NCBI RefSeq assembly: GCF_023702125.1
Contig: NZ_CP098415.1
Location: 2,542,001-2,606,000, forward strand
Origin: Halorubrum hochsteinianum
Lineage (GTDB): Archaea > Halobacteriota > Halobacteria > Halobacteriales > Haloferacaceae
Reading direction: 5' to 3'
DNA length: 64,000 nt
Part shown: positions 3,693 to 58,774 of the stretch, one piece after another
Position numbering within the stretch: position 1 is the stretch's first letter
Layout of the letters: every line of letters begins with the position of its first letter
The notes under the pieces: generated by a model
What the model saw: the letters and a program-made list of their open reading frames with translations, nothing else
The model's database searches: none
What the model was told of the DNA's origin: nothing
Position numbers and translations under genes: made by a program

Positions 3693-4558
3693 GCATTTTC
3701 GTCGACGACGACACCAGAGTAGTGGTTCAGGGAATCACCGGCGGGGAAGGGAGGTTCCACGCCGGCCAGATGATCGAGTACGGCACGAACGTCGTCGCCG
3801 GCGCGGTGCCCGGCAAGGGCGGCCAGGAGGTCGAGGGCGTCCCTGTCTACGACACCGTCGACGAGGCCGTCGAGGCGGAGGACGCGGACGCCTCCGTGAT
3901 CTTCGTGCCGCCGGCGTTCGCCGCCGACGCGATCTTCGAGTCGCTCGACACCGACCTCGACCTCGCGGTCGCGATCACCGAGGGGATCCCGACGCAGGAC
4001 ATGGCGAAGGTGAACAAGCGCCTGAGCGAGACCGACACGCGCCTCCTCGGGCCGAACTGCCCGGGGATCATCACGCCCGGCGAGGCGAAGCTCGGCATCC
4101 TCCCCGGTAACATCTTCTCCGAGGGGAACGTCGGGCTCGTCTCCCGCTCCGGGACGCTCACCTACCAGGTCGTCGACAACCTCACCGAGCGCGGACTCGG
4201 CCAGTCGACCGCCATCGGCATCGGCGGCGACCCGATCATCGGGACCTCCTTCATCGACGCCTTGGAGGCGTTCGAAGCCGACACCGACACCGACGCGGTC
4301 GTGATGTGCGGCGAGATCGGCGGCGAGGACGAGGAGCAGGCCGCCCGCTTCATCGGCGAGCACATGGACACGCCGGTCGCCGGCTTCATCGCCGGCCGCA
4401 CGGCACCGCCGGGCAAGCGGATGGGCCACGCGGGTGCCATCGTCTCCGGCTCCGGCACCGGGACGGCGCAGTCGAAGATCGACGCCCTCAACGACGCGGG
4501 CGTCCCCGTCGGCGACACTCCCGAAGAGGTCGCCGACCACGTCGAGGACTTCCTGTAG
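3689..4558 (+). CDS. sucD: Succinate-CoA ligase (ADP-forming) alpha subunit
   Basis: Alpha subunit of succinyl-CoA synthetase, 289 residues. The N-terminal CoA-binding Rossmann domain shows [22 protein letters not shown]. The phosphorylated active-site histidine is His247 in GHAGAIVSG, and [17 protein letters not shown] is the usual CoA-ligase segment. It starts with ATG at 3689, overlapping the end of sucC (ATGA), so the two form an operon. A T-run follows at about 4598-4602. Confidence 0.97.
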
Positions 4559-4597
4559 ACGGGTCGGACCGCCGCTCCGACGGCGCGGCTCCCGGTC

Positions 4598-4602
4598 CGT
4601 TT
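4598..4602 (+). terminator. Possible T-rich termination site after sucD
   Basis: A run of five T residues lies 40 bases after the sucD stop and before the next start at 4659. Archaeal termination needs only a T-rich non-template stretch, so this is a plausible but weak signal. Confidence 0.25.
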
Positions 4603-4658
4603 TTCAATTCCGGTACTCGGAGCGAAAGCTAAACCTACTGGGAGAGAAACAGGTGGAC

Positions 4659-6029
4659 ATGAACGCCGGTCCCGATAACCCGTCGGAAAAACCCGACTCG
4701 GTCGCGTCCGACGCGTCGGGAACGAGCGGCGACGGGCCTCGTCGCGTCCTCTTCGTCGACGACGAGCCGGGAGCGGCCGACCTCGCCGCGACGCACGTCG
4801 AACGGCTCGTGGACGACATCGAGACCGTCACTCGGCTGTCGCCGGAGGAGGCGCTCTCCGTGGTTCGGAGTCAGAGCGTCGACTGCGTCGTCAGCGACTT
4901 CGACATGCCCGGGTCGAACGGGCTTGAGTTCCTCGAAGATGTCCGGGCGGTCGACTCCGGGCTCCCCTTCGTGCTGTTCACCGGGAAGGGGAGCGAGGAG
5001 ATCGCGAGCGAGGCGATCACCGCCGGCGTCACCGACTACCTCCAGAAGGGGGCCGGCCGGGACCGCTACGAGATGCTCGCGAACAGCGTCGCGAACGCCC
5101 TCGGACATCGGAAGGCCGAGCGCGACCTCCGCGAGGTGAACGCGAAGGTCACGGCCATCCACGAGTTCGCGACGGGGCTGGCGTCGGTGACGGACGTGGA
5201 GACGGTGTTCGACCGCACCGTCGACGCGGCCGAGGACATCCTCGAGTTCGACCGCTGCGTCGCCGCCCACCGACGCGGCGACCGGGTCGTTCCGACGGCG
5301 CTCTCCGAGAGCGTCACCGAAGGCGAGATCCGGACCTTCGACGTCGGGGAGGGGGTCGTCGGAACCACCGTCGCCAAGGAGGAGACCATGGTGGTCGACA
5401 ACCTCAGCGTCGACCCCGCGGACCCGGACGAGCTGGAGGACCCGGCGGCACCGGGCCGCGATCCGTCGGGGCCCGACCGGCGGGAGGGAGCGGAGGTCGC
5501 CGACCCGGTGGCCGACGACATCCGGTCGGCGATCAGCGTTCCGATCGGATCTCACGGCGTTTTACAGGCCGTCTCGGACGGGTACGCCGCGTTCGACGCG
5601 CGCGACGTCGAATTCGCGGAGCTGCTGGCGACCCACGCGGCCGACCGGATCGAACAGATCGAGACGGAGGACGCGCTCAGGCGCGAGCGGGACCGCCTCG
5701 CCGCGCTCTTCGACGACCTCCCGCTCCCGGCGGTGCGCACCGTCGCGCTCGGCGACGGGGAGCGTCGCCTCGACGCCGCGAACGAGGCGTTCGAGGAGAC
5801 GTTCGGCCTCTCGGTCGAACACGGGTACGAGGAGATGCGAGAGGCGCTCATCCCGGACGGTGCCGATCGGATCGACCCCGAGGCAGCCCTCGACCGCGAC
5901 GGGCCGTCGCGGCTCGAAGTGCGCCGGCGGACGCCCGACGGCCTGCGCGATTTCATCCTCCACGTCATTCCCGTCGAACAGACGCAGGAAACCGTCATAT
6001 ACAGCGTGTACGCCGACATCGGCGAGTAG
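4659..6029 (+). CDS. Receiver-GAF-PAS sensor protein, front part of an interrupted histidine kinase
   Basis: From ATG 4659 (an in-frame GTG at 4653 is an alternative) the product is 456 residues. A response-regulator receiver domain comes first: the acidic pair is in LFVDDEP (residues 31-37), the phospho-acceptor is Asp80 in SDFDMPG, and the lysine is in VLFTGKG. A GAF-like domain (about residues 165-330) and a PAS-like segment (about 345-450) follow. No kinase core is present before the TAG at 6027-6029. After the TAG the same frame continues with KRVERTLRKLHATTREMF, the linker that normally joins PAS to GAF in haloarchaeal kinases, so this is the front part of a longer protein. It may still work as a receiver/sensor fragment, or the whole gene may be a pseudogene. 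Confidence 0.75.
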   Translation: MNAGPDNPSEKPDSVASDASGTSGDGPRRVLFVDDEPGAADLAATHVERLVDDIETVTRLSPEEALSVVRSQSVDCVVSDFDMPGSNGLEFLEDVRAVDSGLPFVLFTGKGSEEIASEAITAGVTDYLQKGAGRDRYEMLANSVANALGHRKAERDLREVNAKVTAIHEFATGLASVTDVETVFDRTVDAAEDILEFDRCVAAHRRGDRVVPTALSESVTEGEIRTFDVGEGVVGTTVAKEETMVVDNLSVDPADPDELEDPAAPGRDPSGPDRREGAEVADPVADDIRSAISVPIGSHGVLQAVSDGYAAFDARDVEFAELLATHAADRIEQIETEDALRRERDRLAALFDDLPLPAVRTVALGDGERRLDAANEAFEETFGLSVEHGYEEMREALIPDGADRIDPEAALDRDGPSRLEVRRRTPDGLRDFILHVIPVEQTQETVIYSVYADIGE

Positions 6030-6077
6030 AAGCGGGTCGAACGCACCCTCAGGAAGCTCCACGCGACGACCCGCGAG

Positions 6078-7175
6078 ATGTTCGGCGGCGAGAGCCGCGA
6101 GGAGATCGCCGAGCTGGCCACCCGCGCGGCGATCGACATCCTCGAGTTCCCGAACAGCGGCGTTCGGCTGTACGACCCCGAGGCGAACGTCCTCCGGCCG
6201 ACGGCGATAAGCGAGGAGGCGACCGCGGCCTTCGGCGACCGACCCCCGTTCGGCCCCGGAGACGGCCGCGTCTGGGAGGCGTTCGAGACCGGCCAGCCGG
6301 TCCTCGTCGACGACCTCGCCGCGGTCGACACCGCGGTCGGGTACGGCGACATCCGGAGCCTCCTCGTCGTTCCGCTCGGCGACCACGGCGTCATGCCGCT
6401 CGGCTCGCGGGAGCCGAACGCCTTCGACGAGACCGACCTCCAGTTGGCGCGGGTCCTCGCGGCGAACGTCACGGTCGCGCTCGACCACGCCGAGCGGACC
6501 GAGCAGCTGCGCGACCGCGACGCCGCGCTCCAGCGGGAGATCGACCGGCTGGAGAAGTTCGCCGGGCTGGTGTCTCACGACCTGCGGAGTCCGCTCAGCG
6601 TCGCCACCGGTCGGACGGACATGGCGCGGTCCCTGACCGACGACGAGGCCGTCCTCGCCGAGCTCGACCGGGTCGAGGACGCCCACGACCGGATGTCACA
6701 GCTGATCGCCGATCTCCTCGCGCTGGCCCGACAGGGCCGGACGGTCGATCAGATCGAGCCCGTCCCCCTCGCCGAGGCGGCCGAGCGCGCGTGGAGCACC
6801 GTCGACACCGCGAACGCGACCCTCGACGTCGCCGACGCGTCGGCCGCGGTCGGCGCGGACCCGGAACGGCTCCGGACGCTCCTGGAGAACCTGTTCGCGA
6901 ACAGCGTGGAGCACGGCTCCACTGGAAGCCGGTCGGAGACCGGCGACGATCTCACCGTCTCCGTCGGACCGCTCCCGGACGGGTTCTACGTCGCGGACGA
7001 TGGGTCCGGGTTCGACATCGACCCGGACGAGGCGACGGACTACGGGCGGTCGAGCACGGCGGCCGGAACGGGCTTCGGTCTCGCGATCGTCCGCGAGATC
7101 GCAGCCGCGCACGGTTGGGAGCTGTCGATCGAGGACGACGACGGCGCTCGCTTCGAGTTCCGGACCGATCGGTGA
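6078..7175 (+). CDS. GAF-histidine kinase, rear part of an interrupted sensor
   Basis: This continues the frame of the receiver-GAF-PAS part after the TAG. ATG 6078 is the first start codon, but homologous-looking sequence begins right after the stop (6030). The 365 residues hold a GAF domain (1-135) and a HisKA domain with the phospho-accepting His167 in LVSHDLRSPLSV. The HATPase domain has an N-box (LLENLFANSVEHG), a G1 box (VADDGSGFD) and a G2 box (GTGFGLAIVREI). The kinase core looks intact, so a soluble kinase could be made if translation restarts at 6078. No membrane segment is visible. Its partner regulator is unknown. Confidence 0.75.
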   Translation: MFGGESREEIAELATRAAIDILEFPNSGVRLYDPEANVLRPTAISEEATAAFGDRPPFGPGDGRVWEAFETGQPVLVDDLAAVDTAVGYGDIRSLLVVPLGDHGVMPLGSREPNAFDETDLQLARVLAANVTVALDHAERTEQLRDRDAALQREIDRLEKFAGLVSHDLRSPLSVATGRTDMARSLTDDEAVLAELDRVEDAHDRMSQLIADLLALARQGRTVDQIEPVPLAEAAERAWSTVDTANATLDVADASAAVGADPERLRTLLENLFANSVEHGSTGSRSETGDDLTVSVGPLPDGFYVADDGSGFDIDPDEATDYGRSSTAAGTGFGLAIVREIAAAHGWELSIEDDDGARFEFRTDR

Positions 7176-7255
7176 TATTTAAAAACGGGGGTTGCGTGCG
7201 CGGCCGGCGCACAGACGGGCCACGGTTATGCGCGATTCGCCCGTTTACGTGATGT

Positions 7256-7564
7256 ATGGACGAAGGAACCCGCGAGCTGCTCGAACCGCTCCCGCCGAGC
7301 GCCAAGCTGGTCTACTACGTGCTCGACGCCGAGGGCCGGTTCGACCAGACCGGCCTCGCCGAGGAGACCCGTCTCTCCACCCGAACCGTCCGGTTCGCGG
7401 TCGAGAAGCTCACCGAGGTCGGGCTCGTCGAGGAGGGGCTGTGCCCCCGCGATGCGCGCCGCTCCGTCTATCAGGCCGTCCCGCCCGCGGAGCGCGACCC
7501 CGTCGACGAGCCGGAGGCGGCCGCCGAGGCCGACGCGCCGACCGCCGCCGTCGCCGAGGACTGA
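7256..7564 (+). CDS. Small winged-helix transcriptional regulator
   Basis: A 102-residue protein. Residues 12-70 read as a MarR/TrmB-like winged helix: PSAKLVYYVLDAEGRFDQTGLAEETRLSTRTVRFAVEKLTEVGLVEEG, with the recognition helix around STRTVRFAVEKL and the wing around residues 63-75. The C-terminal 30 residues are acidic, alanine-rich and probably disordered. A TATA-like stretch (CGTTTACGTG, about 7230-7240) precedes the ATG at leaderless spacing. Proteins of this small size are common in haloarchaea; the target is unknown. Confidence 0.8.
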   Translation: MDEGTRELLEPLPPSAKLVYYVLDAEGRFDQTGLAEETRLSTRTVRFAVEKLTEVGLVEEGLCPRDARRSVYQAVPPAERDPVDEPEAAAEADAPTAAVAED

Positions 7565-9052: not shown

Positions 9053-10216
9053 TCAGTTCGGGTCCGTCGCGTTCGACCCGCGCGACTTCGAGTCTCTCGA
9101 CCCCGGCCGCGTCGACCGCCGTCCACCCGGCCCGGGACGTCCCGAGTTCTCCCCGACCGACCGGGTCGCTTCGGGGTCGTCGGGGAGCCGGATCCGGACG
9201 ACGGTGCCCCGCGGGTCGTTCTCGGCGAACTCCACCGTTCCCCCCGCCCGGGCCACGGTCCAGTATATCAGCCACAGCCCGAGCCCCTCGGTGTGTTCGA
9301 GCGGGGTCTCCTCGGCGTTGCGGAGCGTCTGTCGCTCGATCCGCGGGATGCCTCGCCCCGTGTCCTCGATGACGAGCTCCGTCGCGTCCCCGTCCCGGCG
9401 TACCCGCACCGTGATCGCCACGTCGTCGTCGTTGTGTTCGATCGCGTTCCGGAGCGCCTCCTCGACCGCGAGCGGGAGCGACGGGTGAGTTCGGACGACG
9501 CAGTCTTCGGGGAGTTCCGTGTGAATCGCGACTCCGGACGACTCCGCGGTCACCCGGGCGATCCGCGCCTCGACCACGGCGACGAGGTCGATCGACTGGA
9601 GGGTTTCCGTCCGCCAGATCGCGGCGATGCGCCGCGTTCGCTCGCTCGTCTCGACGAGCTCCTCCAAGTGGGTCCGGGCGATCCGCGCCCGTTCCGCGAT
9701 CGTCTCCCCGTCCGCCGCGTCCTCGATCCCTTCGAGGTGGCCGAGCGCCACCGCCAGCTCGTTTCGGATGTTGTGACGAAGCACCCGGTCGTTGATCGAG
9801 AGGAGCGTCGTCAGATCCTGCGCCTCGGTGAGCCGTTCGTCCGCCTTCACCACGTACAGCCCCGCCCGCGATCCGACCGCCGCGCCGAGGCTGGCGGCGA
9901 ACGAGAGCAGGAAGGAGAGCTTGAACGCGTGGTGGCCGAGCAGCCAGATGAGCCAGACGACGCCGGCGAGCGCGGCGAACCCGAGCGCGGTGCCGACGCC
10001 GATCCGGACCGCTCGCCACTGCCCCGAACGAGAGATCTCCCAGCGCGGGAGGTCGTGGACGGTGTAGAAGACGACGCCCGAGAGGGCGAATATCAGCCCG
10101 AACTCGAGCGCGGTCCCCAGGTTCCGGCTTCCGAAGACGAGGTGGCGCGCGGTGACGCCGAAACAGCATCCGCCGAGAGCAGCGAAGCCGTATCGGGGCG
10201 GTACACGCTGGACCAT
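9053..10216 (-). CDS. Membrane-bound sensor histidine kinase
   Basis: 387 residues. The first 120 contain about four hydrophobic segments (near 11-27, 36-53, 72-95 and 100-120), so the sensor is in or near the membrane. A short linker leads to the phospho-accepting His148 in RVLRHNIRNELAV, a spelling typical of haloarchaeal HisKA variants. The ATPase domain follows, with LRNAIEHND as N-box, DTGRGIPRIE as G1 and LGLWLIYW as G2-like. The last 40 residues are a basic, proline-rich tail. No response regulator is adjacent. The ligand is unknown. Confidence 0.88.
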   Translation of the reverse strand: MVQRVPPRYGFAALGGCCFGVTARHLVFGSRNLGTALEFGLIFALSGVVFYTVHDLPRWEISRSGQWRAVRIGVGTALGFAALAGVVWLIWLLGHHAFKLSFLLSFAASLGAAVGSRAGLYVVKADERLTEAQDLTTLLSINDRVLRHNIRNELAVALGHLEGIEDAADGETIAERARIARTHLEELVETSERTRRIAAIWRTETLQSIDLVAVVEARIARVTAESSGVAIHTELPEDCVVRTHPSLPLAVEEALRNAIEHNDDDVAITVRVRRDGDATELVIEDTGRGIPRIERQTLRNAEETPLEHTEGLGLWLIYWTVARAGGTVEFAENDPRGTVVRIRLPDDPEATRSVGENSGRPGPGGRRSTRPGSRDSKSRGSNATDPN

Positions 10217-10276: not shown

Positions 10277-12355
10277 CTACTCGTCGTAGATCAGCTCCAC
10301 CTCGTCGGCGAACCGGTCCAAGATGTTCCGCCGCTTCTTCTTCATGGTGGGCGTGAGCAGGTCGTTCGCCTCGGTGAACTCCTCTTCGACGAGCCGGAAC
10401 TGCTTTATCTTCTCGTACGACTCGAACTCCTCGTTCACGCGGTCGACCTCCGCTTGAATCCGCTCGCGGACCCGGTCGTCGCGACAGATCTCCGCGGGGG
10501 CCTCGGACAGGTCGATCCCCTCGGCGTCGGCCCACGCCGCGACCTTCTCGAAGTTCGGGACGATGAGCGCGGAGACGAACTTCCGGCCGTCGCCGAGCAC
10601 GACGCACTGCTCGACGAACTCGTTGGCCGCGAACCGGTCCTCGATCGGCCCCGGCGCGACGTTTTTTCCGGTCGAGAGCACGAGCAGTTGCTTCGCGCGC
10701 TCGCGGAAGGCGATGTACCCGTCGGGCCGGAGTTGGACGATGTCGCCGGTCCGGAACCACGGCTCGGCCGCGGCGTCGGACGCGTCCGGTGCGTCCCCCT
10801 CGACGCCGACGCGTTCGTCCGGCGGCGTCCCGGCGGTCACGACGCCCTCGGGGAGTTCGTCGGCGGCGACGAACGCCTCCTCGGTCGCGTCCGGTCGGTT
10901 CCAGTATCCGTCGGTCACCTGCGGCCCGCGGACGAGCAGTTCCCCCACGTCGCCGTCCAGGTCCGCGACCTCCTCGCCGACGACCGCGTCGTCGATCGCG
11001 ATCTCCGTGTCGACGACCGGCGGACCGATGGTCCCCACCGTCGGGCGCTCCGGCGGGTTGACGCTGATGACGGGGGAGGTCTCCGTCAGGCCGTACCCCT
11101 CTAAGATCGGGAGGTCCATCGCGTGGTACAGCGCGCAGAGCTCGGCCGACAGCGACCCGCCCCCGGAGATGAAGAATTCGATGTTGCCTCCGATCGCCTC
11201 CCGGACCGACGAGAAGACGAGCCGGTCGGCGACCGCGCGCTTGGCGTCAAGGATCGGACCGGGGTCGTCGGCCTCGTGGTGGGCGCGACCGACCTTGACC
11301 GCCCACTCGAAGATGCGCTCCTTGACCGGCGACTCGCTCGCCTGCTCGCGGATCGCGTCGTACAGCTTCTCGTAGACGCGCGGGACGCTGGTCGTCGTCG
11401 TCGGCCGCACCAGCCCGAAGTCCTCGCGGAGCGTGTCGGGGCTCTCCGCGTACGCGACGGTCGCGCCGGCGGCGAACATCATGTAGTGGCCGGCCATCCG
11501 CTCGAAGACGTGCGCGAGCGGGAGGAACGAGAGCGTCGTCGACTCCGCGGAGATGCCGGGTACCTCGGGGTCGCGGTCGGGCCTGTCGGCGAACCGGCGG
11601 TAACACTGCGAGACGTTGTCGCGGAAGTTCGCGTGCGTGAGCCGGACGCCCTTCGGCTTCCCGGTCGTCCCGGAGGTGTAGATGAGGCTGGCGAGGTCGT
11701 CCGTGTCGACCGCGTCGATCCACCCCTCGTAGGCCGCCTCGTCGAACGCCGCCGCGCCGCGCTCGTGGACCTCCCCCAGCGTGTACACGTCGTCGGTCGT
11801 CGATCTGTCCGTATCGATTTCGGCCGCCACGGCGTCGGCGTCGACGTCGTCGATCGTCACGATCGCTTCGAGGTCGTGTTCGAGGTCGTCGCGGACGCGG
11901 AGCACGTCCGCGAGCATCTCGCGGTTCTCGGCGACGACGACGGTCGCCTCCGGGTCCTCCAGCAGGTATCGGAGCTGTGTCGGCGACGAGGAGGCGTAAA
12001 CCGTCGTCACCGCCGCGCCGGCCGCCAGCGCGGCGAAGTCCGTCTGGGCCCACTCCATGCGGGTCTTCGAGTACATCGCCACCCGCGTGTCGCCGTCGAC
12101 GCCCGCCTCGCGGAGCCCCGCGGCGAGGCTCCGGACGATCCCGCGCATCTCGGCGTACGTCAGGTCGGCGTACTCGCCCGCGGGTGCCGCCGGGACGACT
12201 CCGGCGGCGACGAGCGACCGGTCGTAGATGCCCCCCTTGTACCGCTGCGCGAGCCGGTCCGCGTGCCGCTCCGCGGTCCCCTCGAACATCTGCGGGAGGG
12301 TTTCCCGGGCGATCGCGGCGTCGGTGAACGATCGTTCCGCCTCCTGCCAACTCAT
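10277..12355 (-). CDS. AMP-dependent acyl-CoA synthetase (long-chain fatty acid type)
   Basis: ANL-superfamily enzyme that activates a carboxylic acid with ATP and joins it to CoA. 692 residues from the ATG at 12355; the frame stays open further upstream, but MSWQEAERS is the natural start. Motifs are the P-loop YTSGTTGKPKGVRLTH (about 226-241), GYGLTETSPV, and DGYIAFRERAKQLLVLSTGKN near the C-terminal domain, and LTPTMKKKRRNILDRF at the end, the usual end of FadD15-like ligases. The size and FadD15-like ending suggest a long-chain fatty-acyl substrate, though haloarchaeal lipids are isoprenoid, so the true substrate is uncertain. Confidence 0.85.
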   Translation of the reverse strand: MSWQEAERSFTDAAIARETLPQMFEGTAERHADRLAQRYKGGIYDRSLVAAGVVPAAPAGEYADLTYAEMRGIVRSLAAGLREAGVDGDTRVAMYSKTRMEWAQTDFAALAAGAAVTTVYASSSPTQLRYLLEDPEATVVVAENREMLADVLRVRDDLEHDLEAIVTIDDVDADAVAAEIDTDRSTTDDVYTLGEVHERGAAAFDEAAYEGWIDAVDTDDLASLIYTSGTTGKPKGVRLTHANFRDNVSQCYRRFADRPDRDPEVPGISAESTTLSFLPLAHVFERMAGHYMMFAAGATVAYAESPDTLREDFGLVRPTTTTSVPRVYEKLYDAIREQASESPVKERIFEWAVKVGRAHHEADDPGPILDAKRAVADRLVFSSVREAIGGNIEFFISGGGSLSAELCALYHAMDLPILEGYGLTETSPVISVNPPERPTVGTIGPPVVDTEIAIDDAVVGEEVADLDGDVGELLVRGPQVTDGYWNRPDATEEAFVAADELPEGVVTAGTPPDERVGVEGDAPDASDAAAEPWFRTGDIVQLRPDGYIAFRERAKQLLVLSTGKNVAPGPIEDRFAANEFVEQCVVLGDGRKFVSALIVPNFEKVAAWADAEGIDLSEAPAEICRDDRVRERIQAEVDRVNEEFESYEKIKQFRLVEEEFTEANDLLTPTMKKKRRNILDRFADEVELIYDE

Positions 12356-12537
12356 ACCCCCCCAGTCCCGCCCTACCCTCATAAACGACCCGGTAGTTTT
12401 GAGTTTCTCTCGACCGTCCGCTCCACGGACGCGACTGTTCGCGGTCTCCGAGTCGGATTTACGCCGTCTGCGGGTCGGTTCCGAGTCGTCGCCGAAGCGC
12501 CCGATACACGGTCGAGTGCGGCGGTTGCCCCCTGCGG

Positions 12538-13518
12538 TCAGCGGTCGGCGGCGACTCGACTCCCGACGCCGTCCCTGTCCGCGCGGACGCGGTCCGCCAG
12601 CTCCGCCGCCTGCGCCAGCACGGGATAGCGCGGCCCGTCGGTGGGTCCGTAGAGATAGCCGTAGAACGTCCGCTCGGAGTCGTCGTCGAGGCGGGGGGTC
12701 AGCGGCGGGTCGTCGAGCGAGCGCTGTCGGTCGGCGGCGAGCTCGTCGCACTCGCGCTCCAACTCCGCCAGCCGGTTCCAGACGTCGATCGCCGCGTCGG
12801 TCTCGCGCCCGTCGCGGACGCCATCCATGTGACCGAGCAGCCGCCGGCGGCGACGGTCGATACCGGACAGCGCCGTCTCCCGGTCCGCCAACTCCGCTAT
12901 CTCCTCGTCTATCGCGCCCGCCAGCCCGTCGCGCGCGTCCGCGGCGCGCCGGCTCCGGTCGACGAGCGCCGACTTGGCCCCGCTCGATAACCCCCCGTCG
13001 GTCGCCAGCGCCGTCGCCGTGTCGGGGCCGAGTTCCGCGGCCAGGCTCTCGGCCGCCGTCTCGTCGTACTCGTCCCGGTAGTGCGACAGCGACAGCACGG
13101 TGTCGTCGTACGCGGCCAGCACCCGCCGGAGCGTCACGTCGCCGCCGCTCGGTCCGCCGCCCGGCGAGACCCCGTTCCCCGCCGAGCCGATGCCGCCGAA
13201 CTCGCCGGCGGGGACGCCGGACGGGGTCGAGTCGGACGGGACCGGCACAGTGTCCATCTCGGCCACCCGGTCGGCGAACGCCTCGAACGCGTCGCGCTCG
13301 TCGAGGACGCGCCGTCGCTCCGCCCGGCAGGCCGCCTCGGCGTCGCGAACGTGCGCGAACGCGAGCAGCGCGACGACCCCGACGACCGCCACCGCCGCGA
13401 CCACCTCCGGCCGGGTCGCGACCGCGCCGACCTCGCACCATGCGTTCGAACACCCCGCCGCAGTCACCCCCTGGTCGGGGATCTGGAAGACCGTCGTCGA
13501 GCCCGGATGTACACTCAT
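12538..13518 (-). CDS. Haloarchaeal coiled-coil protein with one membrane helix
   Basis: 326 residues from the ATG at 13518; an ATG 33 bases upstream is also in frame but MSVHPGS is the likelier start. One hydrophobic helix lies near residues 37-55 (VVAAVAVVGVVALLAFA). The rest is long charged helix rich in Glu, Arg and Ala with no enzymatic motif. It ends with a compact segment (ERTFYGYLYGPTDGPRYPVLAQAAELADRV). The architecture resembles the haloarchaeal families of unknown function annotated around DUF7260, but I cannot confirm this. Role unknown. Confidence 0.65.
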   Translation of the reverse strand: MSVHPGSTTVFQIPDQGVTAAGCSNAWCEVGAVATRPEVVAAVAVVGVVALLAFAHVRDAEAACRAERRRVLDERDAFEAFADRVAEMDTVPVPSDSTPSGVPAGEFGGIGSAGNGVSPGGGPSGGDVTLRRVLAAYDDTVLSLSHYRDEYDETAAESLAAELGPDTATALATDGGLSSGAKSALVDRSRRAADARDGLAGAIDEEIAELADRETALSGIDRRRRRLLGHMDGVRDGRETDAAIDVWNRLAELERECDELAADRQRSLDDPPLTPRLDDDSERTFYGYLYGPTDGPRYPVLAQAAELADRVRADRDGVGSRVAADR

Positions 13519-27830: not shown

Positions 27831-28301
27831 TCAGGCGGCCGCGTCCGCCACCGCCTCGTCGAGTTCGTCGTAGTCCGGTTCTTGCCCGGCGTTGTCCGCG
27901 AGCCAGCGGTACGTCACGGTCCCGTCCGCGTCGATCACGAACACGGCGCGCTGGGCGACCGTCTCGACACCGTAGCCCTCGAAGTCCTCGATCACGTCGT
28001 ACGCCTCGATCGCGCCGTGGTCCGGGTCGCCGACGAGCGCGAACGGGAGGCCGTACTGGGTGCGGTACGCCGCGAGCGCGTGCGGCAGGTCGGTGCTCAC
28101 GCCGAACAGCGTACAGTCGTCGCGGTCGAACCCGTCGCGGAGCGCCTCCATCTCGTCGGTACAGGTGTTCGAGAAGGCGGCGGGGAAGAAGGCGAGCACG
28201 ACCGGCTCGTCGCCAAGGTGGTCCGAGAGTCGGAACGGCGCGATGTCGCCGTCCACGAGCGATCCGGTGAAGTCGGGAGCGTTGTCGCCGACGTGTGGCA
28301 T
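27831..28301 (-). CDS. Peroxiredoxin (AhpC/TSA, BCP-like)
   Basis: 156 residues from the ATG at 28301 (MPHVGDNAPDF); the open frame further upstream is not gene-like. It reduces hydroperoxides with thiol electrons in the cytoplasm. The thioredoxin fold has the peroxidatic site PAAFSNTCTDEM with Cys47. A second cysteine at residue 63 (RDDCTLFGVS) might be the resolving residue. The Pro-x3-Thr/Ser-x2-Cys signature is shifted to Ser44-Asn-Thr-Cys47, as in AhpE/BCP relatives. It is convergent with the acs gene. Its reductant in this organism is unknown. Confidence 0.9.
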   Translation of the reverse strand: MPHVGDNAPDFTGSLVDGDIAPFRLSDHLGDEPVVLAFFPAAFSNTCTDEMEALRDGFDRDDCTLFGVSTDLPHALAAYRTQYGLPFALVGDPDHGAIEAYDVIEDFEGYGVETVAQRAVFVIDADGTVTYRWLADNAGQEPDYDELDEAVADAAA

Positions 28302-28455
28302 ATCTGGTTGTCGTCGGCCGGGCGTATCACGGTTTCGACGGCGGAATTCGAGTCGGTCCGTCGCCCTCGGGCGGCCCGTCCTCGATACGACCGGAGGAGA
28401 CGACGCGACTCGCATCGGGACAGAGACCAAGTGGGTCGCCGCGGTAGGACCGCGC

Positions 28456-29373
28456 GTGTCCCGCCCTCCACGCCGCCCGATCCGCCGTCGAGTGGTACTG
28501 CTGACCGCGACCGCCTCGGTGCCCGCGCTGTCCGGATGTCTCGACGCCGACTTCGGGGACGACGGTGCCGCAGCGACCGTTCTCAAGCTCGACGAGGCGT
28601 CGGTCACGGGCGTTTCGAACGCCTTCGCCACCTCCGTCGACATGGTCGGCCACGCCGGCCGAGCCGCCGTGCGGACCGCGATCGACGGCGGCGAGGGGAC
28701 CGTCGAGGGATACTACGGTCCGGACGTCTCGGCACCGTACGTCGTCACCGACGGCCCGGCGTTCCACCGCATCGAGACCGAGACGCTCCGCTCGGTCGCG
28801 GCGACGGGCTACGAGTACGCGGTCGAGGTCGACGCCGTCGACTCGTTCCGCTCCGGCCCCCCGTCGAACGTCCCGTTCGCTGACCTCCCGGAGTGCGACC
28901 GCGACGCGGTCCGCGACGCGCTCGGGAACGCGGGTCTCGTTCACGCGCCGCACTATCCGCCGTTCGACGTGACGTTCGCGTACGCGTCCGCCGAGACGCG
29001 GGAGCGCTCGCGGTTCGTCCCCGCGAACGACGGCCAGCGCGTCGAGTGGGACGGCGAACTGCTCCGGTTCGGGTTCGAGGAAGAGCGGTCGGTCGAGGTC
29101 CGAACCGTGGCGGTTCGCGCCGAGCACGTCGCCTCGTCGCCAGACGAGTTCCGTCGGGCCGTCGGCGAGGAACACGGTCGGTCGTTCGACGACCCGGGCC
29201 CGGAGCGGCGCGCGATCCTTGACGCGGCGATCGACTCCGAGTACCGCGAGTCCCCGCCGCACTCCGACGCGTTCGCGGCAGTCCTCGACGCGATTTCGAC
29301 CGACGGGGAAGCCGTTCCGCTCGTCCGCTACGACGGGGACTGGTACTTCACGCACCTCTCCGGGTGGGACTGA
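28456..29373 (+). CDS. Predicted secreted lipoprotein, function unknown
   Basis: 305 residues from GTG 28456 (MSRPPRRPIRRRVVLLT). The N-terminus has consecutive arginines, a hydrophobic stretch and the lipobox ALSGC (Cys28), which fits a twin-arginine lipoprotein, the usual export route in haloarchaea. The mature part is acidic, with no recognised enzyme motif. Its last 70 residues (EEHGRSFDDPGPERRAIL...VPLVRYDGDWYFTHLSGWD) look like a compact beta domain. The open frame extends much farther upstream, but that part overlaps the peroxiredoxin gene on the other strand. It is followed by tatA. Confidence 0.65.
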   Translation: MSRPPRRPIRRRVVLLTATASVPALSGCLDADFGDDGAAATVLKLDEASVTGVSNAFATSVDMVGHAGRAAVRTAIDGGEGTVEGYYGPDVSAPYVVTDGPAFHRIETETLRSVAATGYEYAVEVDAVDSFRSGPPSNVPFADLPECDRDAVRDALGNAGLVHAPHYPPFDVTFAYASAETRERSRFVPANDGQRVEWDGELLRFGFEEERSVEVRTVAVRAEHVASSPDEFRRAVGEEHGRSFDDPGPERRAILDAAIDSEYRESPPHSDAFAAVLDAISTDGEAVPLVRYDGDWYFTHLSGWD

Positions 29374-40301: not shown

Positions 40302-42200
40302 TCAGCCGTCCTCGATCCGGATCTCCTGCGTCGAGACGTGGAGGTAGTTGATCGTCGGCACCTGTTCGACCTCGTCGAACACCTCCGCGGTCGCGAGCGC
40401 CTCGTCGTACCGCATCGTGAACCGCGCGTCGTCGAGGTCGTCGAACCCGTCGACGGTGAGCGCCCCGCGAATTACGACGTCGCCTTTGGCGTCGTCCACC
40501 TCGGCGTTCGGCGCGTACACGACGCCGGTGAGATCGACCGGGGCGTCGTCGCCGTCGAACTCCAGGCTGTCCGCGTTCGAGAACAGCCAGAACGAGTTGG
40601 CGGGCTCGTTCGTTCCGGTCGAGACCGTTATTCCAGTGTCGTCGTCCCCGTCACCGATATCGATGTCCCCGCCCGGCTCATCGTGGAACACTCGGAGTTC
40701 GGCGTCGTCGTCGACGGTCACCTCCGAAGCCCCCTCGAGCGCGAGATCGCCGCCGACGTGGATCCGTGCCTTCCCGTCGCCGACGACCCTGACTTTTGTC
40801 GGGTCCGAACCATCTCCGCTCAGCGAGAACTCGTCGTCGACGCGCAGGTCCAGATCGCCGTCGGTGACATCGAGGACCAGTTCGCCGCCGGACAGGTCCG
40901 CGTCGTCGAACCGGAATCCGGCGTGGTCCCCGCCCGCCTCGAAGGTGACGGTTCCGCCGTCGACGGTGAGGTCCCCGTCCGCGGCGGTGCCGTCTTCGCC
41001 GCCGTCCGAGGCGATGACCTCGGCGTCCTCGGCGCGGTACGTCTCGCTTCCGCCGGAGACGTCGAGCCCGTCCTCGACGGACGACCGGCTCGTGATCGGC
41101 GCGTCATCGCCGAGGTCACTCCACGAGGCGTAGCTCGTCGGCGAGGCGTTGCCGTAGCGGGTGTCGTACTCGTCGATCGCCCTGACCAAGTACCCCTCGA
41201 CCGGGTCGGGGTCCTCGATGGTCGCGCGCTCTGTCACGTTACCGATGACGTTGATCGGGTGGTCGCCGTTCTGGATCCCGTTGGGATTCGGCTGGATGTC
41301 GTACCGAGCCCGGAGGTCGCCCTTGATCGTCACGTAGTCGGATCCGCCCCCCTGGGGAGAGTCTATCTCTCCGCCCGCGGCGATCACGGCGTTGTCGCGG
41401 CTCTCGCTCGGACCAGCCCCCCCGGAGTCGTAGCTGTCGGCCGTCAGCGACTCGATCGACTCAAGATCGAACTCGTTGGCTCCGAGCGTCCCGATCGAGT
41501 ACGAGACCCCTCTTCCTACCAGTTCGGACCGCAGCAAAACGGTCACCGAGTCGTTTCTGCGGTCGATGATCCGGGTGTCGGTCCGGCTCTCGAAGAATGC
41601 GGCCCACCCCTCGTGGTAGTCGCCGGTCACCGTCACCCGGATGTCGTCAACCACCGGGTTTTGGGCGACGTGGCCGTTCGGCGACCCCTCGCTCGTCAGG
41701 ATCACTTCGTCGCCGTTGGCCGTCGTGTTCTCCGAGATGGTCACCAACGGGACGGTGAGCGTCTCGCCTCGGTAGTGGAACTCCGGCGCGGACACCATTC
41801 GGCTCCGGTTCCCGTCGCTCCGCCACACGCCGCCGCCCTGATACGCGATCCGCGTCCCGTCGCGTTCGTACACCAGCGCGCCGAGGCTCGCGTTGACGAT
41901 CTCGTCGCCCGTCTCGTTCTCGGCGATCACCATCCGCCCCGCGTCGTGGTCGACGGAGACGTCGCCGCCGCCGCTCCCGAACGAGACGCGCTGGCTCGGC
42001 GACTCCCCGTGCGCGACGAGGCTCGCCTTGGAGTCCACCTGCGTCATCGCTCCCTCGACGCGCTGGAGGTCCGCGGTCCGCTGGGAGTCGTCGAGCGCGG
42101 CACCGCCGAGCGCGACCGTGGTACCGACGACCGCGACCGTCAGCCCCAGCAGTAACACCGTTCCGAGCACCTCGCTCTGCGCGCGCTCACCCCCGAACAT
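40302..42200 (-). CDS. Large pilin-like protein facing the pilus operon
   Basis: 632 residues from the ATG at 42200 (an RC TATA-like CGTTTATGCG at about 42223-42232 is at leaderless spacing). The leader MFGGERAQSEVLGTVLLLGLTVAVVGTTVALGG has Arg-Ala before Gln-Ser-Glu. Residues 40-240 resemble pilin-like protein 5. After a linker comes a long Asp/Gly-rich beta region (about 420-600) ending VYAPNAEVDDAKGDVVIRGALTVDGFDDL...RYDEAL. This ending resembles the C-terminal domain of some bacterial PilX/Tad-type pilus proteins (annotated DUF7305). It could be an adhesin-like or tip component. The stop is 13 bases from that of the facing operon. Confidence 0.75.
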   Translation of the reverse strand: MFGGERAQSEVLGTVLLLGLTVAVVGTTVALGGAALDDSQRTADLQRVEGAMTQVDSKASLVAHGESPSQRVSFGSGGGDVSVDHDAGRMVIAENETGDEIVNASLGALVYERDGTRIAYQGGGVWRSDGNRSRMVSAPEFHYRGETLTVPLVTISENTTANGDEVILTSEGSPNGHVAQNPVVDDIRVTVTGDYHEGWAAFFESRTDTRIIDRRNDSVTVLLRSELVGRGVSYSIGTLGANEFDLESIESLTADSYDSGGAGPSESRDNAVIAAGGEIDSPQGGGSDYVTIKGDLRARYDIQPNPNGIQNGDHPINVIGNVTERATIEDPDPVEGYLVRAIDEYDTRYGNASPTSYASWSDLGDDAPITSRSSVEDGLDVSGGSETYRAEDAEVIASDGGEDGTAADGDLTVDGGTVTFEAGGDHAGFRFDDADLSGGELVLDVTDGDLDLRVDDEFSLSGDGSDPTKVRVVGDGKARIHVGGDLALEGASEVTVDDDAELRVFHDEPGGDIDIGDGDDDTGITVSTGTNEPANSFWLFSNADSLEFDGDDAPVDLTGVVYAPNAEVDDAKGDVVIRGALTVDGFDDLDDARFTMRYDEALATAEVFDEVEQVPTINYLHVSTQEIRIEDG

Positions 42201-42386
42201 GGCGCGGGGTACGTCGGGCGCACGCATAAACGTGGAGACCCGGCTATCGCGGCTGATATCCGGGTCCGCGGACGCGTTCGCGTCCCGAGCCGCGACCGTC
42301 TCCGGGGCGTCGACGGTCGGTCGGAGTCCGTCGCCGACGGGCGGTCGGGGCGATGATATTTCCTCCCGGCGCTCCTCCCTCCCGCC

Positions 42387-43175
42387 GTGACCGAGCAACT
42401 TCACCTCGACGACGACTCCGTGACGGCGTTCGACGCGACGGTCGAGCGCGCCCTCTCGGGCCCGCTGCGGGTCGTGCTCGACCGGACGCACTTCTACCCG
42501 ACCGGCGGGGGCCAGCCCCACGACACGGGAACGCTGCGAACGACCGACGGCGACCGCGTCTGGCGCGTGGTCGACGTCGAGAAGCGCGACACGGTGTACC
42601 ACGCCCTCGGCCCGGCGGAGGGGGCGGATGACGGCGGCGGTTTCCCGGAACCGCCCGAACCGGGCACGGAAGTGCGAGGCGAGATCGACGCCGACCGCCG
42701 GGCGGCGCACTCGCGGTACCACACCGCACAGCACCTGCTGTCGGCGCTGCTGCTTGCGGAGTTCGACGCGCAGACGACCGGCAACCAGCTGTACAGCGAC
42801 CGCGCGCGGCTCGACGCCGCCCGCGACCGGTTCACCGACGCGGACCTCGACCGGATCGAGACGCGGCTCAACGAGCTCGTCGCCGACGAGCGGGCCGTGT
42901 CGAGCTACTCGATGGACCGCGAGACCGCGGAGGCGACGCTCGACACCGAGCGGACGCGGATCGACCTGCTCCCCGACTCGATCGAGGAGCTCCGGATCGT
43001 CGAGATAGCGGGCCCGAGCGAGGGCGACGAGCCGTACGACCGGACCGCCTGCGCGGGGACGCACGTCGCCAACACGGCCGAAATCGGCGAGGTCGTCGTC
43101 ACGGGCCGAGAGACGAAGGGCCCCGAGGAGGAGCGCGTGCGGTTCGCGCTCGCCGAGCACGTCGACGAGGACTGA
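42387..43175 (+). CDS. alaX: Alanyl-tRNA editing protein AlaX
   Basis: 262 residues, GTG start. Free-standing editing domain that hydrolyses mischarged Ser-tRNA(Ala) or Gly-tRNA(Ala). The four zinc ligands are visible: His-x3-His in HTAQHLLSA (about residues 112-116) and Cys-x3-His in CAGTHVAN. The N-terminal beta domain has LDRTHFYPTGGGQPHDTG as in AlaRS. The length and full N-terminal domain place it in AlaX-M/L rather than the minimal AlaX-S. An acidic insertion (about residues 75-92) is haloarchaeal. It stands alone. Confidence 0.92.
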   Translation: MTEQLHLDDDSVTAFDATVERALSGPLRVVLDRTHFYPTGGGQPHDTGTLRTTDGDRVWRVVDVEKRDTVYHALGPAEGADDGGGFPEPPEPGTEVRGEIDADRRAAHSRYHTAQHLLSALLLAEFDAQTTGNQLYSDRARLDAARDRFTDADLDRIETRLNELVADERAVSSYSMDRETAEATLDTERTRIDLLPDSIEELRIVEIAGPSEGDEPYDRTACAGTHVANTAEIGEVVVTGRETKGPEEERVRFALAEHVDED

Positions 43176-45183: not shown

Positions 45184-45624
45184 TTAAGTACTCCCCTCGC
45201 CGCGACCGTCGCTCTCACACCGGCCTTCGAGCCAGTCGAACTGGGCGGAGAGCTCCGCCCGGCGCTGTCGCTCGATCACGGTGGCGTCGAGGAGGTCGCC
45301 GACGAGCGCCACGTCGAGCGCGAACGTCGTCGCGGCGGTCACCTCGCTCCCGTCCGCGGTCGAGGTCACGGCGTACTCCGTCCGCATCGACTCGAATATC
45401 CCCTCGCGCTGCTCGTAGGCGAGGTCCGCGTCCGGGTCCTCGACGAGTTCCAGCGTCAGTTCGACCGACGCCGGGTCCACGTCGTTCGCCACGCGAACCG
45501 TCTCGCCGTCGACCGCGACCGCGTCGAACCCCGCCGACCGGACGAACGGTTCGATATCGCGCATCGCGTCGCGGACGGTCTCCGGCGACGCGTCGACCGT
45601 CCGCGAGACCGTGACGGTGTTCAT
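45184..45624 (-). CDS. START/SRPBCC-like protein
   Basis: 146 residues with the coenzyme-Q-binding/polyketide-cyclase type START fold: SRTVDASPETVRDAMRDIEPFVRSAGF at the beginning, central antiparallel strands (VELTLELVEDPDADLAYEQREG), and the long C-terminal helix ERQRRAELSAQFDWLEGRC. It probably binds a hydrophobic ligand or acts as a chaperone-like protein. Its ATG overlaps the stop of the membrane protein upstream (45621-45624), so it belongs to that operon. Confidence 0.78.
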   Translation of the reverse strand: MNTVTVSRTVDASPETVRDAMRDIEPFVRSAGFDAVAVDGETVRVANDVDPASVELTLELVEDPDADLAYEQREGIFESMRTEYAVTSTADGSEVTAATTFALDVALVGDLLDATVIERQRRAELSAQFDWLEGRCESDGRGEGST

Positions 45625-47006
45625 TCCGCCGGGGTCACCTCGTCGGCGTCGTCATCTCCCCCACTCGACGACCGACTCGGGGCGAACGGGCCGAGGGCGA
45701 CGCGGGCCAGCTCGCCCGGCGCGTGCCGCCGGACCACGAGGAGGGCGTTGACCGCGAAGACTCCGACGCCGAGCGTCACCAACGTCATTCCGACGAGCGT
45801 CGCCGCCGTCGGTCCCTCGGCGAGCGTCGCCGCCGTCGGTCCCTCGGCGAGCGTCGCGCCCGCCGCGTCGGCGGCGAGCGCGGAGCCGACGAGCAGCGCC
45901 GTTCCGAGGAACAGCAGCGTCCCGTCGACGGCCGCGAGGCGGTCGTCGTAGAGGTCGTCGACCATCGGCACCGCCTCCAGCCCGACCCGGTCGCTGTACC
46001 GGTGGACCCAGACGACGAACGGGACGATGTGGTACAGCGTGCCGAGGATGACGAAGCCGATCACGCCGAGGAGCAACGCCGGGGCGCTGCCGGGGCCGCC
46101 GAGGACGTGCTCGGGGGCCGTCGGCGACCTGAACCAGGCCGGCGCGGCGGTCGCGACCCACGCGACGAGCGCGAGCGCGACGACGGCGTACCGCGTGTAC
46201 ATCGGGGTGCGCTCGACGCGCATCTCGGAGAGCCGGCGGGCGAGGACCGCGGCGACCGCCAGCGCGGCTACCAGTATCAGGACGCCGCCGACGCGCGCGA
46301 CTGGAGTTGACCCGACGAGCCGACCGGCCGCGAGCGCGACGACGCCGGCGGGATGGCCGACCTCCTCGACGGCGCGGAGACGGTGGTCGGCCTCGTGTAG
46401 CTCCGTCTGCGTGAACATCGTCGCGAGCTGGTACAACGCGCCGTAGACGGTCGTGAGCACCGCGCCGAAGACGGCGAGGGCGACGTGAGCGCCGCGGACC
46501 CCCGCGTGAGAGACGCCGAGGTCCGCGAGGAGGCCGGACCCGAGGCCGACGGCGAGCAGGACGCCCAGACCCGTCAGGGCGACGAAGAAGGCGAGCGCGA
46601 CGGCGAAGTGCCGCTCGGTCACGTCGAACTCGTCGAGGGTCGCGAGCGTCCGCCCGACGTTGTAGACGAACGTCCAGAAGCCGGCGAGCAGGAGGACGCC
46701 GAACCCCGCGAGCCACGAGAGCCGGCCGAAGGCGAGCGCCGCCGCGAACCCGACCAGGCCGACGACGACCAGCGCGAGGTGGACGTTCGCGAGGCGTCGC
46801 GACCGGAGCGTCGTCCCCGACCACACCGGGACGAACTGCGTCATCGCGCCCATGATCGTCACGCACACCCACCCAACCAGAAACAGGTGGACGTGGACGA
46901 GACCGCCCAGTCCCGGCACCGCGTCGACGGCCAGTCCGATCCCCGCGAGCAGGGCGCTTCCGAGGAGGGCGGCCCCGACGACGAAGTGCCGGAGCGGGAC
47001 CGTCAT
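45621..47006 (-). CDS. Polytopic membrane protein, heme-copper oxidase subunit I-like
   Basis: 461 residues from ATG 47006 (an in-frame ATG at 47051 would add MGAVPRGIDAARGPP). About 12 membrane helices. Histidines occur at oxidase-like places: His38 and His40 in GGLVHVHLFLVGWVCVTIMGAMTQFVPVW, and YHIVPFVVWVHRYSD near residue 345. The pattern resembles haloarchaeal proteins loosely related to cytochrome oxidase subunit I/NnrS, but the copper and proton-channel residues cannot be confirmed by eye. A perfect 27-base tandem duplication lies near the C-terminal end. It is cotranscribed with the SRPBCC protein. Confidence 0.68.
   Translation of the reverse strand: MTVPLRHFVVGAALLGSALLAGIGLAVDAVPGLGGLVHVHLFLVGWVCVTIMGAMTQFVPVWSGTTLRSRRLANVHLALVVVGLVGFAAALAFGRLSWLAGFGVLLLAGFWTFVYNVGRTLATLDEFDVTERHFAVALAFFVALTGLGVLLAVGLGSGLLADLGVSHAGVRGAHVALAVFGAVLTTVYGALYQLATMFTQTELHEADHRLRAVEEVGHPAGVVALAAGRLVGSTPVARVGGVLILVAALAVAAVLARRLSEMRVERTPMYTRYAVVALALVAWVATAAPAWFRSPTAPEHVLGGPGSAPALLLGVIGFVILGTLYHIVPFVVWVHRYSDRVGLEAVPMVDDLYDDRLAAVDGTLLFLGTALLVGSALAADAAGATLAEGPTAATLAEGPTAATLVGMTLVTLGVGVFAVNALLVVRRHAPGELARVALGPFAPSRSSSGGDDDADEVTPAE
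45794..45857. repeat. 27-bp tandem duplication in the membrane-protein gene
   Basis: Unit CGAGCGTCGCCGCCGTCGG followed by TCCCTCGG: copies at 45794-45820 and 45821-45847, then 10 bases of a third. In frame it repeats nine residues (AEGPTAATL) in a loop between the last helices. Confidence 0.85.
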
Positions 47007-47154
47007 CGGCGGCCCTCGCGCCGCGTCGATACCGCGCGGAACTGCTCCCATGGACGGAGAACGGAACGCCTCTCCCCTCCTGCTGTCGCCGAAGATGTTC
47101 GCGCCGTCGTCAGCGCGCGGGAGTCGCCGCCGCACCCCCGCCGAACCGCGCGGG

Positions 47155-47160
47155 ATTAAG
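47155..47160 (+). promoter_or_regulatory. TATA-like element upstream of hyuAB
   Basis: ATTAAG, 25-30 bases before an ATG at 47185 but 94 bases before the hyuA ATG. The likely transcript start is thus at the small frame 47185-47253, not at hyuA itself. Confidence 0.4.
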
Positions 47161-47184
47161 TCCGTCCGGTAATCAGATCGTCCC

Positions 47185-47253
47185 ATGCCACGCGACCGAG
47201 AGACCGCGTCCTCCGGCGTCCGGGCCCTCTGGGACGCCGCGGAGGTGCCGTAG
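47185..47253 (+). other. 22-codon leaderless upstream reading frame
   Basis: Begins with ATG at the position expected for a leaderless transcript and ends with TAG directly abutting the hyuA ATG (TAGATG). The product would be MPRDRETASSGVRALWDAAEVP. It may be a translated leader that feeds ribosomes into hyuA, or chance. Confidence 0.35.
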
Positions 47254-49272
47254 ATGGGCGGGCGAACCGATGATCCCCGAGCGATCGGCGTCGACGTCGG
47301 CGGCACGTTCACCGACGTGGCGCTCTCGCTCGGCGGCGACCTCGTCACCGCGAAGGTGCCGAGCACCGAGGACCAGAGCGAGGCCGTCGTCGCGGGGATC
47401 GAGAAGGCCTGCGAGGCGGCCGGCATCGACCCCGAGAGCGTGACGGAGTTCTCCCACGCGATGACCGTCTCCGTCAACGCGCTGCTGGAGAACGACGGCG
47501 CGCGGACCGCGATCGTGACGACCGAGGGGTTCCGCGACGTGCTTGAGATCGGCCGTCAGACCCGCCCGTCGCTGTACGACCTCGACGCCGAGAAGCCGAC
47601 GCCGCTCGTCCCCAGACGACGCCGGTTCGAGGTCGCCGAGCGCGCGACCCCCGACGGGATCGAGCGCGCGGTCGACGACGGGGACGTCGAGGCGCTCGTC
47701 GCCGACCTCCGCGAGGCGGACGTCGAGTCCGTCGCGGTCTGCCTCCTCCACGCCTACGCCAGCCCGGAGAACGAGCGGCGGGTCGCGGCGGGGCTGCGCG
47801 AGGCGCTCGACGTGCCGGTGTCGGCCTCCCACGAGGTCCTGCCCGAGTTCCGCGAGTACGAGCGCACGTCGACGACGGCCGTCGACGCGTACGTGCGGCC
47901 GGCGATCGACGGGTACGTCGGCCGCCTCACCGAGCGGGCGCGGGACCTCGGCCTCCCGCGGCCGCGGATCATGCAGGCCAACGGCGGCGTCACCGACGCC
48001 GACACCGTCAGGCGGAACGCCGTGACGACCGTCCTCTCGGGCCCCGCGGCGGGCGTCGTGGGCGCGAGCGCCGCGGCGGCGACCGACGCCGACCGCGACG
48101 GGCTGGTCACCTTCGACATGGGGGGTACCTCCAGCGACGTGAGCCTCGTCCGCGACGGCGAGGTCGCACGGACCACGGAGTCCGTGATCGCCGACCGACC
48201 GATCGGGACGCCGATGGTCGACGTCGAGACGGTGGGAGCCGGCGGCGGGTCGATCGCGTGGGTCGACGCCGGCGGCGCGCTCCGGATCGGCCCGCGCTCG
48301 GCCGGGGCCGACCCCGGTCCCGCCTGCTACGGCAAGGGCGGCACGGAGCCGACCGTCACGGACGCGGACCTCGTCTTGGGCTACGTCGGGGCGGACACCG
48401 ACCTCGGCGGCGACCTCTCGCTCGACGCGGCGGCCGCCCGCGACGCGCTCGCCGACCTCGCCGACGAGGCGGGGATGGACGGGCCGGTCGCGGCCGCGTT
48501 GGGGGTCCACCGCGTCGCGAACGCCGACATGAGCCGCGCGATCCGCTCGGTCACCGTCGAGCGCGGCCACGACCCCCGGGCGTTCGGGCTCGTCGCGTTC
48601 GGCGGTGCCGGTCCGATGCACGCCGTCTCGATCGCGGACGGACTCGACATCGACCGCGTCGTCGTCCCCCACGCGTCCGGCGTCCTGTCGGCGTACGGGC
48701 TGCTCGCGGCCGACGAGACCCGCGACGCGGTGCGGACCCGACAGGGCCCGCTCGCCGGAGTCGAGGGTGACGCGGTCGACGAAGTCTACGGGGAGTTGAC
48801 GGACCGACTGCTGGGCGAGGTCAGCGATCCGGACGCGGCGCGGGTGGAGTACGCCGCTGACCTCCGGTACGAAGGGCAGAGCTTCGAACTCACCGTCGAC
48901 GTCGAGCGGCCGTTCGACCCGGTGGCGGCCGGCGAGCGGTTCGCGGCGGCCCACGAGTCGGCGTACGGCTACCGCGCGGACGAACCGGTCGAACTCGTGA
49001 ACTGCCGCGCCACGGCGACGGTCCCGCGGAGCGCGCCCGCGGTCGAGTCCGTCGGCGGCGGCGACGCGGAACCGCGGACCACCCGCGAGGCGGTGTTCCC
49101 CGAAGGGACCCGCGAGACCCCCGTCTACGACCGCGAGCGGTTCCCGGCCGACGAGGCGGTGGCGGGGCCCGCGGTGGTCGAGGGCGCGGAGAGCACGGTC
49201 GTCGTGCCGCCGGGATGGGGCGTGCGACTGCGCGGCGACGGCGCGCTGGTCGCGGAGGTGAGCGACGCGTGA
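47254..49272 (+). CDS. hyuA: Hydantoinase/oxoprolinase subunit A
   Basis: 672 residues. ATP-dependent ring-opening enzyme subunit; the family includes N-methylhydantoinase, 5-oxoprolinase and acetone carboxylase beta. Sugar-kinase-like ATP motifs are IGVDVGGTFTDVALS at residues 10-24 and FDMGGTSSDVSLV (about 288-300). HAMTVSVNALLE near residue 70 and the C-terminal SGVLSAYGLLAADE complete the family pattern. The true substrate (hydantoin, oxoproline or other cyclic amide) is not readable from sequence. It is followed by the B subunit with a GTGA overlap. Confidence 0.92.
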   Translation: MGGRTDDPRAIGVDVGGTFTDVALSLGGDLVTAKVPSTEDQSEAVVAGIEKACEAAGIDPESVTEFSHAMTVSVNALLENDGARTAIVTTEGFRDVLEIGRQTRPSLYDLDAEKPTPLVPRRRRFEVAERATPDGIERAVDDGDVEALVADLREADVESVAVCLLHAYASPENERRVAAGLREALDVPVSASHEVLPEFREYERTSTTAVDAYVRPAIDGYVGRLTERARDLGLPRPRIMQANGGVTDADTVRRNAVTTVLSGPAAGVVGASAAAATDADRDGLVTFDMGGTSSDVSLVRDGEVARTTESVIADRPIGTPMVDVETVGAGGGSIAWVDAGGALRIGPRSAGADPGPACYGKGGTEPTVTDADLVLGYVGADTDLGGDLSLDAAAARDALADLADEAGMDGPVAAALGVHRVANADMSRAIRSVTVERGHDPRAFGLVAFGGAGPMHAVSIADGLDIDRVVVPHASGVLSAYGLLAADETRDAVRTRQGPLAGVEGDAVDEVYGELTDRLLGEVSDPDAARVEYAADLRYEGQSFELTVDVERPFDPVAAGERFAAAHESAYGYRADEPVELVNCRATATVPRSAPAVESVGGGDAEPRTTREAVFPEGTRETPVYDRERFPADEAVAGPAVVEGAESTVVVPPGWGVRLRGDGALVAEVSDA

Positions 49273-57740: not shown

Positions 57741-57824
57741 GGACCCCCGTTTCGCGGCCGAGCGTATCGGCGTTGCGCTTCGCCGCCCGCGCTCCGCGCG
57801 CTCTGCGAGTTCCGTGCCCTCGCG

Positions 57825-58661: not shown

Positions 58662-58774
58662 CTATCGGACTCCCGGGTGCGGCGAGAATAAAGCTTCTCG
58701 GTCCGGACGGGAGGCGACGCGGGGCCTTCCCACCCGACCCGGTCGCTTTTCACCGCCCGTCGGAACACTCGCGT

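Follow-up and report, generated by a model that had tools for sequence, protein, structure and literature searches.

Histidine kinases of archaea in which an N-terminal receiver domain (REC) is followed by PAS and/or GAF modules, then by HisKA and HATPase domains, are described in the portion of the literature drawn upon here (PMC5847659). In haloarchaeal annotation, genes interrupted by an in-frame stop form one of the listed classes of disrupted genes, according to the excerpt of the corresponding source (PMC4500146). The locus considered here belongs to a window of 64,000 nucleotides (nt) from Halorubrum hochsteinianum (contig NZ_CP098415.1, positions 2,542,001 to 2,606,000), by which is meant the whole stretch of DNA analysed and to which all coordinates refer. 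With sucD on one side and a small winged-helix gene on the other, it harbours a sensor histidine kinase gene that has very probably been broken by a recent single C-to-T transition, converting a glutamine codon into TAG. The domain order of the archaeal kinases excerpted from PMC5847659 is found again in the protein of the closest relative, namely Halorubrum tebenquichense DSM 14210 (hereafter the sister), as well as in the read-through frame of the present gene, with a PAS domain just below threshold; unlike in those kinases, the frame is cut here by a TAG between the PAS and the second GAF domain. As for the disrupted genes with in-frame stops in the excerpt of PMC4500146, what remains of the frame can be aligned with its homologues over the full length, the difference being that this kinase bears no further damage yet.

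Frame translation from ATG 4659 to TGA 7173-7175 gives one single frame of 837 amino acids plus a TAG as codon 457 (6027-6029), which is the sole interruption ahead of the final stop. The N-terminal part terminated by this TAG (4659..6029, forward strand) encodes 456 amino acids in which Pfam, applied to the 5' half alone, recognises Response_reg (30-135), GAF_2 (178-331) and PAS_8 (346-410), all above cut-off. The C-terminal part (6030..7175, forward strand), that is 381 codons plus TGA, appears undamaged in sequence from its frame, its Pfam matches and the substitution counts; searched alone, it matches GAF_2, HisKA (39.8 bits for a cut-off of 26.9) and HATPase_c (51.1 bits for a cut-off of 26.4), all above cut-off, and the domains of a histidine kinase are thus present. 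The PAS_8 match is marginal, with 22.9 bits in the 5' half alone against a cut-off of 21.8, and its scores for the read-through frame (20.5) and for the protein of the sister (20.8) fall short of this cut-off; the domain order is identical in these latter two, with PAS_8 just sub-threshold in both, and the TAG falls within the linker joining PAS to the second GAF. A search of the PDB with the translation of 6078-7172 retrieved 35 sequences, mostly named histidine kinases or sensor proteins and matched mainly over the kinase core. A first-pass annotation of this DNA, made from the letters alone, had proposed a frame open from 4659 except for the TAG, with a receiver, GAF and PAS before it and GAF, HisKA and HATPase after it, and both points are borne out, the marginal PAS_8 notwithstanding. 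The sister protein counts 853 amino acids versus 838 codons here, an in-frame difference located in the linker of the ATPase domain that follows NSVEHG. Relative to the sister, this linker is of variable length and lies at about 6910-6950 of the window.

The comparison with relatives carries most of the argument. The homologue search covered 52 Halorubrum genomes, a strong best match being defined by an E value of 1.2e-175 or lower. Such a match was obtained in 46 of the 51 other genomes, none of these 46 best matches containing a stop, and the match in the own genome showed one TAG; two of the 46 (G008 and G023) are broken off by contig ends, but 3' of the site of codon 457. The five other genomes (G014, G016, G029, G033 and G043) yielded paralogue-like best matches only (E values from 1.1e-74 to 3.4e-83). 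A codon alignment was built with 48 sequences, i.e. this gene, those of the 46 genomes of the genus and that of one further strain (L046). Codon 457 is TAG here; of the 47 relatives, 42 have CAG, 4 have CAA and 1 has CAC. Orthology is not proven for every one of them, the distant G034, G041 and G049 (59-64% identity) having shown no sucD upstream. The sister, with 92% identity, has CAG at this position. A single-base route from CAG to TAG is then available and, since 42 of the 47 relatives, the sister among them, read CAG, the ancestral codon is a glutamine codon and the change a C-to-T transition that took place on the terminal branch. As judged from this alignment, the TAG (6027..6029, forward strand) is a nonsense mutation by which C became T in a conserved glutamine codon, seen only in this genome among those compared. 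Separate or split halves were also looked for in the relatives, and a stop at codon 457 occurs in 0 of the 47 aligned sequences. The first-pass annotation had placed CAG or GAG one substitution away from the stop; the former stands, being the codon of 42 of the 47 relatives with the sister among them, and the latter is not retained as the ancestor. The uninterrupted homologues it had suggested looking for exist in 46 of the 51 other Halorubrum genomes, and the situation it held fatal to its proposal, namely relatives in which the two parts are always separate genes, was not encountered in any of the 47. The stop-free relatives, the CAG of the sister and the lack of decay beyond the stop support the reading that it held to be the simplest, namely a recent nonsense mutation.

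Regarding the age of the stop, substitutions were polarised with nine relatives, the unassignable differences being dropped, of which the part before the stop had 12 (6 nonsynonymous, N, and 6 synonymous, S) and the part beyond it 2 (1 N, 1 S). On the branch leading to this gene, 21 N and 24 S were counted before the stop, with an omega (nonsynonymous to synonymous rate ratio) of 0.30 (95% interval 0.16-0.56); beyond the stop, the counts were 6 N and 15 S and the omega 0.14 (0.04-0.38). The ratio of N to S does not differ significantly between the two parts (Fisher p 0.19). Pairwise dN/dS values relative to the sister are 0.041/0.189 before the stop and 0.023/0.096 after it. An old pseudogene, unlike a very recent one, would be expected to show relaxed selection or additional damage beyond the stop; neither was seen, the frame being open to its native end. 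It had been supposed from this lack of damage that the stop is young or that both parts are kept, which agrees with the open frame and the low omega beyond the stop. That the post-stop part has not decayed on this branch therefore means that the stop is young, that it is a sequencing error or that the remainder is still translated. Were the 3' half untranslated since the mutation, a rough hand estimate, based on the upper omega of 0.38 and a background near 0.24, would put the untranslated share of the branch at about one fifth at most. Two points weigh against a recent nonsense mutation here. The absence of decay would be equally expected from a sequencing error or from the continued translation of both parts, and it is the sister branch that shows more nonsynonymous changes in the post-stop part (11 N, 10 S versus 6 N, 15 S), a difference that is not significant (p 0.21).

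If the TAG were an error of sequencing or assembly, the living strain would have CAG and a whole kinase, and a lone substitution with neither other damage nor decay is what such an error would leave. This explanation is nonetheless considered unlikely. The source genome, a Halorubrum of 3.06 Mb, is 99.23% complete in 2 contigs, and single C/T substitution errors seldom occur in finished assemblies. Besides, the window is collinear from 1049 to 57670 with one sister contig, up to the end of the latter, with long pieces 89-97% identical. Among 47 sister open reading frames (ORFs) with matches in the window, 45 were judged and 2 below 60% identity were left unjudged. Seven were flagged, namely this gene, one of 60 amino acids, one that meets a stop at its fourth column, another lying antisense to sucD, two with an over-long start and one with two stops before its conserved part. 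From coordinates, and in the case of the last one from reading it in full, no flagged sister ORF apart from the kinase gene looks like a broken conserved gene, which makes an error a possibility and not the first guess. Turning to translation through the stop, a programmed or suppressor readthrough of the TAG would yield the kinase in full length, perhaps in regulated amounts, and the frame is indeed open on both sides of the TAG without decay. Conversely, the stop is conserved in 0 of the 47 relatives, the neighbouring sucD ends in TAG, and so do 10 of 47 heuristic window ORFs of more than 100 amino acids, a set that includes this ORF and some spurious ones; from these last two observations, TAG is an ordinary stop here. 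The best match to PylS reaches 26 bits for a cut-off of 178, and ARAGORN called no CUA anticodon at 46 transfer RNA (tRNA) matches, a list that is incomplete since no tRNA-Trp was called and in which three calls were obtained only with introns allowed. As far as the excerpted part of a review goes, readthrough in archaea has been demonstrated only for selenocysteine and pyrrolysine (PMC8211752). Programmed readthrough of the TAG at 6027-6029 thus finds no support, and readthrough of either kind is given next to no credence.

The kinase could also be stably split, REC-GAF-PAS and GAF-HisKA-HATPase both being translated, the second by restart, and working as two proteins. The first possible restart codon beyond the TAG is the ATG at 6078..6080 (forward strand), located 48 nt further on, as found by a start-codon scan and the alignment; the next ones are ATG 6393 and TTG 6444 (scan up to 6500). 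Such a split would agree with the undamaged 3' half and its low omega on this branch, as well as with the existence of output-less REC-PAS-GAF proteins as a known archaeal class, mostly from methanogens in the part of the source relied on (PMC5847659). At overlapping gene pairs of Haloferax volcanii, restart is helped by a Shine-Dalgarno (SD) motif and does not strictly depend on it, and its efficiency is expected to drop with distance, following the passages used from PMC6728339. Here, no SD-like tetramer was found in the 20 nt preceding ATG 6078, nor any copy of the promoter pattern native to this gene (GCGAAAnnTAAA, see below) in 5801-6400; other TATA-like patterns gave nothing in 5801-6400 either, but they also miss the native promoter and hence provide no test. 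ATG 6078 is ATG in 48 of the 48 aligned sequences, i.e. an ancestral methionine that is best taken as an ordinary residue of the linker and not as a new start. With the gap of 48 nt and the expected fall of efficiency with distance, an efficient restart at this codon is unlikely. Together with the 0 of 47 relatives that are split, these observations make a stable two-protein kinase quite improbable. Very doubtful likewise is a very young gene split still in progress, in which both halves would be translated, with restart 48 nt past the stop, so that a free GAF kinase would act in trans with a receiver-sensor protein.

A promoter-like motif, GCGAAAGCTAAA, is found at 4622..4633 (forward strand), about 28 nt before ATG 4659, and presumably corresponds to a B recognition element and TATA box of the haloarchaeal type. 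The pattern GCGAAAnnTAAA precedes the gene in 34 of the 48 sequences, this one included, and is missing from 14; the ATG stands 29 nt past the eighth base of the motif in 31 of the 34 motif-bearing sequences, and the pattern occurs in 0 of 411 gene-internal stretches, all these counts being descriptive and no independent test, as the pattern was written after viewing the sequences. The start at ATG 4659 is well supported by this motif, the spacing of which fits a leaderless transcript beginning at this very ATG. A scan of 4550-7300 for promoters and terminators of the bacterial type found nothing, such a scan being unsuited to archaea. With a recent nonsense mutation, the ribosome would start at the leaderless ATG 4659 and stop after 456 residues, releasing a REC-GAF-PAS protein devoid of the kinase core. 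Translation of the C-terminal part is probably lost, or weak at most, in which case the kinase half would not be made or would be made in small amounts via restart at ATG 6078. Predicted from sequence only, the truncated product of 456 amino acids would share its make-up with the output-less archaeal REC-PAS-GAF response regulators, as these are excerpted from PMC5847659, with the difference that it would arise by truncation.

The gene neighbourhood is conserved. In 45 of the 48 sequences, a sucD gene is present at most 400 nt upstream, and 42, this window included, have the small winged-helix gene at most 600 nt downstream; of the six sequences without it, four are at a contig end, one has the gene 726 nt on and one has none. 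In G016, G029 and G033, 168-365 nt separate the match of sucD from that of the winged-helix gene, and this interval contains no kinase match; loss or primary absence of the kinase are both possible there. As these three species lacking the kinase keep the sucD and winged-helix pair, a Halorubrum can live without this gene. The two other genomes without a strong match are uninformative in this respect, G043 having sucD with no winged-helix gene in reach and G014 a distant sucD-like match only. Among the matches listed, 26 for the kinase query are in its own genome, itself included, and the loss, which would be recent, may have been tolerated owing to the many related kinases. Most likely, then, a sensor kinase gene dispensable within the genus has been hit by a nonsense mutation that is recent and of an ordinary kind. 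For annotation purposes, the locus is best flagged as one disrupted kinase gene and not as two genes, and has little importance beyond that; yet a clean break by one substitution in an otherwise undamaged kinase could let restart and readthrough be tested in a natural setting in haloarchaea.

Some features around the gene can be added. The winged-helix gene that follows the kinase (7256-7564) shows a weak match to MarR_2 (21.8 bits for a cut-off of 27) and may either be partnered with the kinase or simply lie next to it. A second kinase-like gene is found nearby on the reverse strand (9053-10216), with HATPase_c by Pfam and no HisKA match at an E value of 0.001. In G029, a genome of 82% completeness, sucD matches in two pieces in different frames (L143 1461-2328; residues 1-15 and 14-289), an apparent frameshift near the start of the gene. 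In the reverse comparison, 45 window ORFs have matches in the sister, 3 of which, below 60% identity, were left unjudged. Five were flagged because they meet stops or frame changes in the sister contig or are covered by it in part, namely 10277-13453 (reverse strand), 28060-29373, 40302-43160 (reverse strand), 45621-47477 (reverse strand) and 56703-58691, and are probably over-long or spurious ORFs or reflect the end of the sister contig.
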